A DNA stretch of 64,000 nt from Sorex araneus (taxonomy: Eukaryota > Chordata > Mammalia > Eulipotyphla > Soricidae), in NCBI RefSeq assembly GCF_027595985.1, contig NC_073305.1:116096114-116160113 (forward strand), written 5' to 3'. Below are positions 752-55,110 of this stretch, in pieces. The notes under the pieces were generated by a model. That model did no database searches and was not told the DNA's origin. It was given only the letters and a program-made list of their open reading frames with translations. Made by a program: the position numbers and the translations under genes. Within the stretch, counting starts at the first letter, position 1. Every line of letters starts with the position of its first letter.

Positions 752-993
752 GGTTGGAGCGATAGCACAGGGTAGGGCATTTGCCTTGCATGAGGCTGAC
801 CAGGGTTGATTCCTCCACCCCTTTCAGAGAGCCTGGAAAGCTACCGAGAATATCTCGCCCACATGCCAGAGCCTAGCAAGCTACCCTGACGCATTTGATA
901 TGCTAAAAACAGTAACAACAAGTCTCACAATGGAGACGTTTTGGTGCCTGCTCGAGCAAATCAATGAGCAACAGAATGACAGTGATACAGTGA
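752..993 (+). mobile_element. SINE with RTE-like 3' tail (long-body family)
   Basis: The tRNA-like head (gagcgatagcacag) is followed by the tttcagagagcctgg body seen in the copy at 1592. The tail, atggagacgttttggtgcct to gatgacagtgatacagtga, matches the RTE 3' end. No poly(A). Target-site duplication not found. Confidence 0.9.
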
Positions 994-1165: not shown

Positions 1166-1591
1166 GAAAGTAAATGAAACCTAAATGATATTGTCTACCT
1201 CATCCGCTGGGTTTTTATGGGGACTGAATGAGCTAAACATGTAACATTCATACAATATTCCTGTTATTTGTTATACATTCTTTGATATTAGCTGGTGCTG
1301 CCTCTTACTCTTGTTCCCACTATTATGGGTCTTTCTGGCCCCACCAGGATCCAGTGTTGAGGTGGCTTAAATAGGTCTTTGAGTACAACTGGGTTAAGCC
1401 CAAAGCACAGTGTTGCTTCCACAACGCATGTTCCATACAGTCTTTTCCCCATTGCCATGTTCCTCTGGTCCTCAGAGCATGGAGACGAGACCAAAGGACT
1501 TCTTGATGCTCCACTGACTGAGGTCAGGAAGATGCTGACAAGAAGTCCAGTCCTTCTTGTCAGCCATTTGCAGTATCTATTGTGTTCACCC

Positions 1592-1832
1592 TCGGACTGG
1601 AGCGATAGCACAGCGGGTAGGGCGTTTGCCTTGCACACAGCCAGCCCGGGTTCGATTCCTCCGTCCCTCTCAGAGAGCCCGGCAAGCTACTGAGAGCATC
1701 TCGCCTGCAGGGCAGAGCCTGGCAAGCTACCCATGGCGTTTGTGATATGCCAAAAACAGTAACAACAAGTCTCACAATGGAGACGTTACTGGTGCCCACT
1801 CGAGCAAGTCGATGAACAATGGGATGACAGTG
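1592..1832 (+). mobile_element. SINE with RTE-like 3' tail, with target-site duplication
   Basis: Best-preserved copy of the long-body family. It has an A-box-like tagcacagcgggtag, a B-box ggttcgattcc, then the ctctcagagagcccgg body. A 50-bp 3' end (from ggagacgttactggtgcc) matches the end of the RTE open reading frame. The 15-bp duplications 1577-1591 and 1833-1847 (ctattgtg-t/c-tcaccc, one mismatch) fix both ends, so the RTE-like tail is part of the unit that moved. Confidence 0.93.
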
Positions 1833-2257
1833 CTATTGTGCTCACCCAAGCAATGCCCGTGGCTTAGCTGGACCTTGTCATCCCGCCTTCTGATTACACC
1901 TGTCCACTTGGGCAAGCCCCTTGGCCTCCATGGGCCTCAGCTTCCCACCGCTATGACCGGCTTGCTGCTAACCATGTTCCGTGGGTCTCCCCAGAAGTCA
2001 ACACAAAGGACTCCACAGCAGGCAGCCCCTTCCCCAGTCTCTCTTGAGGCTGCTCATCCTCACCATGAGCGTCCTTTCAGATTTCTTAGAAACACGCTGT
2101 CCCCCTCTTCCTTCTCACAGCACACACACATACATCTTTCTCCTCACAGCCATGGTGCCCTACTCTGAGACAGGCCAGGACAGATGGTGCAAAGGGTCAG
2201 AACATGGGAGCCTGGGGCCTCCCTATCGTCCCCCAAGCACCGCTGGGGACAAATATT

Positions 2258-2413
2258 GAGTGTGTCATACAGTGGGTAGGGCATTTGCCCTGCACGCAGC
2301 CAACCCGGGTTCAATTCCCAGCATCCCATATGGTCCTGAACACCACCAGGAGTAATTTCTGAGTGTAGAGCCAGGAGTAAACTCTGAGTATTGCTGGGTG
2401 TGACCCCCAAAAG

Positions 2414-2415
<2 letters not shown>
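2258..2415 (+). mobile_element. Shrew SINE with TA-microsatellite tail
   Basis: The head is missing its first bases. The body runs intact to gtgacccccaaaagca and passes directly into a (TA)n tract. Confidence 0.85.

Positions 2416-2472
<57 letters not shown>
2416..2472. repeat. (AT)n microsatellite
   Basis: About 28 uninterrupted AT units growing out of a SINE tail. Confidence 0.98.
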
Positions 2473-2473
<1 letters not shown>

Positions 2474-3456
2474 TGTGGCCCTTCAAATTAGCTAAGAAGG
2501 GATGCCTTAGAAACCTCATGAAGGTCACTTAACCAGAGCCCTTAACAAGGACATGCAGTGGGCTGGAGCTGGGGACCAAAACTGTGAGTGGAGGCCGCCA
2601 CTACATTTGCACCATCGGATCAACATTTCCTTAAAAAAGGCTCAAGATTAAGGGCACCCCCTCACCCCTGCCACTGCAACCCCACCTGCTGGGAAGGTCA
2701 GTCTGTCTTGCAACCTTTTTATGAAGGCTTTTTATAGCTCACATTCTAGGGAGTCACTTTTTTTTTCTTAATTAAGAATTCTAATTTTAAAGCAGGCCCT
2801 GACCTCTTTCTTTCCAGAACCGTGTGAGTACTTTCATTGCATTTTCTGGGTAAAAATTAAGATCCTTTATTGTCTGCTGGCTCTGTCTCCTCTATAGCCA
2901 GTTACCCATGACACCCAGGCACGTGGCTGAGACTATCGTAAAAGGGTTCTTCCCATGAGGATATTAAAAAAAGGTCTTGGGGCAGTTGGATTAGATGCTA
3001 TAAAGGACTTCAAGTCACATGGCACTTTTTTTTTTTTTTTTTTTTGCTGAGGGGTGTGTTTTATCTGGAATGGGGCCTTAATCGAGGAAGCCAAAGGATA
3101 ATTGTATTTCCTCTAAACAGTCCTGTTTAGAGACTGTTGTTCGACAAGGTCATTTGTCAGACAGAAGGTGATTTGCTCTGAAGAGTCATTTCAGAATGTC
3201 TGCCTGGTTTGGGGCCTCAGCTCCTGCTTGGGGAGCTAAGGCGATGAGAAGTGTCTGATCACAATTCCCACAACAGGGCCTCGCTGCCCGCTGGGCTTGA
3301 GCCGGAGAAGGGACTCACGTGGATTCCACAGCCCAAGTGCTTGTTAGCAGCAAGCGGAGACGACAGGAAAAGCACCTGCAGATAAAGAAAGGACCCAAAA
3401 TACCAAATGGTACTGTGCAATTTAATAGGATGTGTGTAGATCTGAAGGTCAAAGTG
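2473..3456 (+). other. ANKRD6 intron, no recognised feature
   Basis: Unique-looking intronic DNA with a T-run at 3027-3045. No exon, RNA gene or known repeat identified. Confidence 0.5.
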
Positions 3457-5445: not shown

Positions 5446-42478
<37,033 letters not shown>

Positions 42479-54860: not shown

Positions 54861-54949
54861 GGGCCTAAGCCCGGGAGACTGCTGGAGGTTGGACTCTGTC
54901 TTGGGTCCTAGTCCTGCGTGAGCGGTGCACCAGGCTTGCTTCATCTTAT

Positions 54950-55110
54950 TACTCTTTGGCATATTGAATACGCCACGGGTAGCTTGCCAGGCTCTGCCGT
55001 GCGGCGGGATACTCTTGGTAGCTTGCCGAGCTCTCCGAGAGGGACAGAGGAATCGAACCCTGGTCGGCCGCGAGCAAGGCAAACACCCTATCCACTATGC
55101 TGTTGCTCTG
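54950..55110 (-). mobile_element. Long-body SINE, antisense, RTE tail missing
   Basis: The minus strand shows the head, gtttgccttgct, cgattcctctgtccctctcg and the body up to catatgcc-like sequence. It stops before the RTE-like tail, so it is 3'-truncated. It lies about 160 bp upstream of the LYRM2 start. Confidence 0.85.

Follow-up and report, generated by a model that had tools for sequence, protein, structure and literature searches.

The stretch of the common shrew (Sorex araneus) genome analysed here, referred to as the window (64,000 nucleotides; assembly GCF_027595985.1, contig NC_073305.1, positions 116,096,114–116,160,113), contains a complete short interspersed element (SINE) at positions 1592–1832, as well as further SINE copies, pieces of an RTE retrotransposon, and internally deleted RTE derivatives (Table 1). 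As judged from sequence comparisons, the SINE is a composite of three parts: the RNA polymerase III (pol III) head of SOR (the host's commonest SINE), approximately 110 bp taken from the 5′ untranslated region (UTR) of this shrew's RTE, and the terminal ~57 bp of the same RTE. The consensus of the composite SINE (239 bp) was built from 22 copies, seven of them picked by similarity to the window copy, and the SOR consensus from 57 copies. An original prediction, made for this locus from the letters of the window, had placed a full SINE at 1592–1832 fixed by a 15-bp target-site duplication, and the two flanking repeats do agree at 14 of 15 positions, with an honest length of 12–15 bp because the opening CTA could equally belong to the tail repeat of the SINE. 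The second full copy in the window (752–984) is bounded by an 11-bp duplication (740–750 and 993–1003, 10/11 identical).

The tail of the SINE (window 1776–1832) matched both RTE ends named in the original prediction, with local alignment scores of 36.5 against 19906–20030(−) (best shuffle, 15.5) and 32.5 against 39018–39345(−) (best shuffle, 18.5), scores reached by none of 2000 dinucleotide-preserving shuffles. Positions 183–236 of the SINE consensus were 81–93% identical to the 3′ end of all nine long RTE copies fetched. In the RTE, this shared string closes the reading frame, where CAACGGGATGACAAGTGA reads Q-R-D-D-K-stop (our own reading of a partial RTE consensus), and the Nippostrongylus protein P0002 has QRDDR as its C-terminus. 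The proposal that the SINE 3′ end is the RTE 3′ end, as in Bov-tA, is thus borne out, and the alignment of tails that had been suggested as a check lies far beyond chance. The accompanying claim, that the SINE ends in the very string of the RTE open reading frame (ORF) and its stop, is right as to the match and not as to the letter, as the SINE has GACAGTG, which is one base shorter and out of frame.

The comparison with Bov-tA turns out to be closer than the original prediction knew, as the SINE also carries a piece of the RTE 5′ end that had been missed. SINE consensus positions 65–175 were 92%, 88%, and 86% identical over 110–111 bp to the 5′ UTR of the RTE copies L044, L039, and L042, respectively, and no shuffle (0/2000) scored as high as the window SINE body did against L044. 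Only these three of the nine long RTE copies reach the 5′ segment; the other six match their fellows from further downstream. No foreign sequence is needed between the two RTE pieces, because the intervening GTCTCAC resembles the next bases of the RTE 5′ UTR.

The first 66 positions of the composite SINE are identical to the SOR head at 64 positions, and beyond position 66 the two consensus sequences diverge, with SOR having a separate body and ending in poly(A). Assignment of the composite SINE to SOR itself accordingly failed, its body and tail being RTE-derived rather than a SOR body and an A-rich tail. An A box (TAGCACAGCGG) and a B box (GGTTCGATTCC) can be read in the head at 1592–1657, and a CC is common to both sides where head meets body, just past the pol III B box. 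The Rfam tRNA match on this head, at 15.2 bits, fell short of the gathering score of 29 bits. ARAGORN called six tRNA-Ala genes in the window (22066–62190), all six at SINE-type heads and none at 1592, and these are most likely not real tRNA genes. Two further homologies were considered and found no support: between the SOR body and the RTE 5′ UTR, hinted at by weak BLAST extensions (213/2000 shuffles as high), and between the SOR body and the SINE body (118/2000 shuffles as high). Both primers of a published shrew (Soricidae) SINE assay fit the SOR consensus, and its probe does so at 18 of 20 letters (Table 1 of PMC8608897).

Table 1. Positions in the window of the composite SINE at 1592–1832 and of other SINE- and RTE-derived features
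Feature	Position	Strand	Details
5′ target-site duplication	1577..1591	.	CTATTGTGTTCACCC, matches 1833-1847 at 14/15
tRNA-Ala-like head of SOR SINE	1592..1657	+	SINE consensus 1-66 vs SOR consensus 64/66
RTE 5′-UTR-derived body (SINE consensus 65-175)	1658..1768	+	E 1e-34 to 1e-28, consensus vs RTE copies L044, L039, L042
GTCTCAC between the two RTE pieces	1769..1775	+	resembles RTE 5′ UTR GGTCTCAT/GGCCTCAT by eye; outside the BLAST matches
RTE 3′-end-derived tail (SINE consensus 183-239)	1776..1832	+	consensus 183-236 vs 9/9 long RTE copies
3′ target-site duplication	1833..1847	.	CTATTGTGCTCACCC
Second full SINE copy	752..984	+	85% to consensus; one ATACAGTG tail unit
SINE copy without 3′ part (consensus 7-172)	54946..55108	-	
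RTE 3′ end	19908..20042	-	tail GACAAGTGATACAAGTG
Upstream part, apparently of the same RTE insertion, inverted	20031..21010	+	L039 reference positions 2320-3284
5′-truncated RTE 3′ piece	39019..39344	-	tail GACAAGTGATACAAGTG
Internally deleted RTE derivative	8699..8837	-	5′ UTR 470-530 of reference joined to 3′ end; tail ATAGTGATACAGTG
Internally deleted RTE derivative	27544..27737	-	5′ UTR 339-531 of reference; degraded 3′ end just beyond

The RTE that supplied the body and tail is of a nematode type. For the C-terminal 239 amino acids of one RTE copy, the best 120 of 605 relatives comprised, by our count, 111 named as strongylid nematodes, two as Sorex fumeus, and seven unnamed, and a Nippostrongylus protein shared 69% identity with the RTE protein across 94% of the query. 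Pfam matches on the RTE (Exo_endo_phos, E = 3e-5; RVT_1, E = 1e-4) were both below the curated cut-offs. With a Sorex fumeus protein as the query, the best 120 of 589 relatives included Sorex fumeus, Sorex araneus, nematodes, and unnamed rows; neither Suncus nor Crocidura was among these 120, which is no proof of absence. Four Sorex fumeus proteins (P0127, P0133, P0144, and P0169) are RTE endonuclease pieces that bear the name 'craniofacial development protein 2-like', a label probably given to retrotransposon ORFs in error. The partner fits RTE1_Sar, an identity drawn from the host and from the nematode affinity. RTE1_Sar has been reported as transferred between strongylid nematodes and the common shrew, in a direction favoured and not confirmed by the authors (Dunemann and Wasmuth 2019, PMC6542046), a transfer that PMC8384839 cites. 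If the RTE entered horizontally, the SINE arose from it within the shrew lineage, as an outcome of the transfer.

Pattern counts covering the whole 2.41-Gb genome (65 contigs) placed the composite SINE among abundant repeats, with a 29-mer across its junction (≤2 mismatches) found at 137,433 places (reversed control, 0) and its head/body junction at 36,110 (control, 0), compared to 286,343 matches for the SOR junction. At like stringency the RTE 3′ context, which is common to autonomous and deleted copies, had 2,762 matches, and the native RTE 5′ UTR context had 1,050. By density, a 174-kb sample (the window plus eleven stretches of 10 kb each, placed at round coordinates) held 11 junction-bearing SINE copies, equivalent to ~150,000 per genome, along with two RTE insertions and three deleted RTE derivatives by our own reading. 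As a marker, the SINE is several to tens of times commoner than the RTE (11 vs 2 in the 174 kb; 137,433 vs 2,762 pattern matches), ratios that are rough because the patterns differ in CpG content and subfamily fit.

The two contexts differ in their tails when counted genome-wide by exact gapped patterns, with 30,577 GACAGTG tails and 90 GACAAGTG tails in the SINE context, compared to 461 and 871, respectively, in the RTE context. Both window RTEs (19908 and 39019) end in GACAAGTG and are therefore not the direct parent type of the SINE. At all six GACAGTG-tailed RTE-context loci that were fetched, a piece of the RTE 5′ UTR runs straight into the RTE 3′ end and no tRNA head is present (uninformative in L061, because that copy is 5′-truncated); by internal junction, the six fall into three kinds (L059/L060; L061/L063/L064; L062). 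More diverged deleted derivatives were found at window 8699–8837(−) and 27544–27737(−) and in L048 and L044. Nine of these ten derivatives keep a ~65-nt core at 5′ UTR positions 383–447 of the reference copy, the tenth being window 8699, which starts at 470 and may be 5′-truncated, and the RTE end from about AATGGAGA (the last ~55 nt) is clearly kept in all but the degraded window 27544; shared descent could account for part of this conservation. Tail types and deleted derivatives together make it likely that short, internally deleted, GACAGTG-tailed RTE derivatives are the parents of the SINE, along a path on which an autonomous RTE would have given rise to a deleted RTE with the one-base-shorter tail, which would then have fused with a SOR head just past the B box, perhaps by template switching. 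U6 chimeras produced through template switching by RTE-clade long interspersed elements (LINEs) have been described (PMC4476161).

Formation of the SINE directly from an autonomous GACAGTG-tailed RTE subfamily, with no deleted intermediate, is unlikely, though it is the alternative that survives best. Nine copies combine an exact ORF anchor with a GACAGTG tail, a number that stands without a matched count for the other tail. Among 29 fetched RTE copies, six have the anchor in exact form. Each of the 29 retains roughly the final 300 bp of the ORF or more. They had been selected for similarity to the type-A window copy, and their tails were classed by alignment scores; 22 were of type A (GAAGATC...GACAAGTG), four of type B (GATGARC...GACAAGTG), two were ties, and one (L024) was SINE-type, a score attributed to a SINE within the scored stretch. 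Against a direct autonomous parent, 26 of the 29 similarity-chosen copies carry one of the two GACAAGTG tail types, and the six GACAGTG-tailed loci fetched from the RTE context are all deleted derivatives.

The 5′ ends differ among the RTE copies and derivatives. Five loci (L059, L060, L062, L048, and L044) begin with a different stretch upstream of the shared 5′ core, and several contain GACTATAAAAC, which resembles a TATA-type promoter; L039, the long copy in L044, L063, and L064 have another sequence in that place. The RTE may have had interchangeable 5′ ends. The deleted derivative at L044:78–329 lies ~60 bp upstream of, and in the same orientation as, a long RTE copy (L044:386-). A broader scenario is offered tentatively, at somewhat short of an even chance: the nematode-derived RTE would have shed a series of non-autonomous derivatives that differ in their internal deletions, one of which captured a resident SINE head and went on to rank among the genome's commonest repeats (~150,000 copies, as estimated from density), and the ~65-nt 5′ UTR core and the last ~55 nt would have been kept as the cis signals that the RTE machinery needs.

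Ages were compared as non-CpG Kimura two-parameter (K2P) divergence from the consensus. For the SINE, 12 copies from the window and evenly placed stretches gave a mean of 0.082 (0.031–0.138), with the window copy at 0.041; rows with K2P of at least 0.22 that align only to approximately position 175 were omitted, being taken as SOR or related, and a wider set that includes five such rows (n = 23; mean, 0.118; the five rows, 0.220–0.266) was not used. The similarity-chosen RTE copies had a mean of 0.063 (n = 29), and the RTE pieces in the window diverge by 0.040, 0.063, and 0.100, with the pieces behind the latter two values probably belonging to a single insertion. The SINE and the RTE were active in the same period. 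SOR diverges more (mean, 0.178; 102 copies), with 63 of 102 copies exceeding the most diverged of the 12 SINEs, and as its divergence reaches further back, SOR very probably predates the composite SINE, though the SOR rows of highest divergence (up to 0.46) may come from older families related to it. Pairwise K2P among the deleted derivatives (0.094 to 0.277) against the SINE pairwise mean (0.214, all sites) gave no ordering; the corresponding RTE pairwise mean was set aside, as unaligned flanks had entered into it. The dating of SINE against RTE copies that had been proposed thus ended in overlap, with no order obtained; that the SINE is younger than the transfer, as the original prediction held, is implied by what the SINE is made of, provided that the RTE was acquired by transfer, and the divergences add no independent proof.

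A SINE stitched from a SOR head and two RTE pieces very probably spreads by the RTE copying machinery, and we put the probability that it is a tRNA-headed, bipartite, RTE-mobilised SINE at roughly 0.9. In the best-supported reading of the sequences, pol III would transcribe the element from its SOR-derived head, the RTE reverse transcriptase would recognise the RTE-derived 3′ end, perhaps aided by the 5′ piece, and the RTE enzyme would nick the target and copy the SINE RNA in by target-primed reverse transcription. In 13 of 20 full copies the target duplication exceeded 95% of 60 shuffles (mononucleotide, of the flank downstream); two of these 13 (L012 and L024) sit in AT- or GT-rich simple repeats. 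Tails in the same 20 copies begin with a full CTACAGTG or ATACAGTG unit in seven, with part of one (CAGTG) in eight, and with neither in five.

Several observations weigh against RTE mobilisation and the history drawn from it. Seven of the 20 full copies lack a convincing duplication. The fold of the RTE 3′ end is no better than that of shuffles (z = 0.57), so no stem-loop recognition signal was found there. The copy divergences of SINE and RTE overlap, with the RTE sample chosen by similarity, and a search for nested SINE/RTE insertions that would order the two found none, only three abutting pairs. Finally, only 6 of the 461 GACAGTG-tailed RTE-context loci were read.

Other folding results concern the SINE and the RTE 5′ segment. 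The SINE tail folds better than most shuffles (z = −2.1), partly via a hairpin across the SINE-specific junction. At consensus 176–201, GTCTC and GAGAC are opposed across the junction of the RTE pieces and can pair as a hairpin; the GTCTC apparently comes from the 5′ piece and hence is not in the RTE's own 3′ end. The 5′ segment folds alike in SINE and RTE (z = −1.5 and −2.2), and an Rfam search for ribozymes or other known RNAs in L044 1–1100 and the window SINE returned only sub-threshold matches.

Copying of the SINE by L1, as is presumed for the A-tailed SOR, with the RTE pieces as passengers, is highly improbable. L1-type machinery probably works in this genome, because SOR is A-tailed and the more abundant element (286,343 junction matches). 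None of the 20 full composite copies ends in poly(A), however, and 15 run on into RTE-like repeat units or parts of them; in addition, the 30,577 exact-pattern copies retain the RTE 3′ end up to GGATGACAGTG, and the headless RTE derivatives retain the same end. Slightly less probable still is the reverse direction of exchange, in which a host SINE would have donated the 5′ segment and the tail to the RTE. Similarity alone gives no direction, but the tail that both have codes for protein in the RTE (QRDDK-stop, with QRDDR ending P0002), and additional RTE 5′ sequence adjoins the 5′ segment, on its upstream side in L039 and L044 and on its downstream side in all three copies. Chance or low complexity as the source of the tail similarity is practically ruled out, as none of the 2000 shuffles attained the observed scores and reversed-pattern controls were 0 in every pattern count.

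The RTE insertion at 19908–21010 is split into two parts of opposite orientation, an arrangement absent from the original prediction, and its flanks share TTTGGTTTGAACAG / TTTAGTTTGACAG with one mismatch and one indel. Its inverted upstream part has the form expected of interrupted target-primed reverse transcription, or twin priming, a process known from L1.

What appears to be new here is this SINE; the bipartite RTE-SINE plan and the transfer of RTE1_Sar were known. A partial literature search, which did not cover Repbase, Dfam, or subscription journals, found no published description of the composite SINE, and it is undescribed in the available portions of PMC6542046, PMC4844689, PMC7245038, PMC13295347, PMC3747384, PMC12026660, PMC8608897, PMC11544316, PMC4476161, PMC3183009, PMC7716205, and PMC8384839. 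A known element of this host, RTE1_Sar, is alike in being an RTE that Sorex araneus and strongylid nematodes have in common and differs in being an autonomous LINE, and the word SINE is absent from the main text of PMC6542046; neither 'Sorex' nor 'shrew' occurs in PMC3747384 (2013). As loci with the composite SINE postdate the arrival of the RTE, the SINE is usable as a dating tool, and its presence or absence across Sorex, Blarina, Crocidura, and Suncus would bracket a transfer that is published but poorly dated.

Known systems share the plan in different degrees. A bipartite rule for SINEs mobilised by BovB (Bov-tA, Ped-1/2, and AfroSINE) was reportedly set out by Gogolevsky et al. in 2008. 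These SINEs are alike in having a head and an RTE-clade tail, with the Ped-2 head taken from an existing SINE (ID; table in PMC3747384), and differ in their partner, which in the shrew is a nematode-type RTE and probably not BovB, going by the best 120 of 605 protein relatives. According to Suh et al. 2016 (PMC4844689), the AviRTE SINEs of birds (ManaSINE1, GymnSINE, and others) combine RTE 5′ UTR and 3′ pieces, and in some the head derives from a small RNA gene and carries a pol III promoter; they differ in involving another RTE, filarial nematodes, and birds, and their heads are tRNA-Glu, 5S, 28S, or GC-rich sequence, not an older host SINE. The hagfish SINE1-1_EBu and SINE2-10_EBu likewise consist of an RTE 5′ UTR and 3′ end, and the same route via an internally deleted non-autonomous RTE has been proposed for them (PMC7245038), in another host, with another RTE, and with a 7SL head in SINE1-1_EBu. 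The bipartite plan seen with BovB, AviRTE, and the hagfish RTE thus appears again in a mammal, where the RTE is of nematode type and the head came ready-made from a host SINE; such a recurrence would have no easy explanation if either RTE piece lacked a function.
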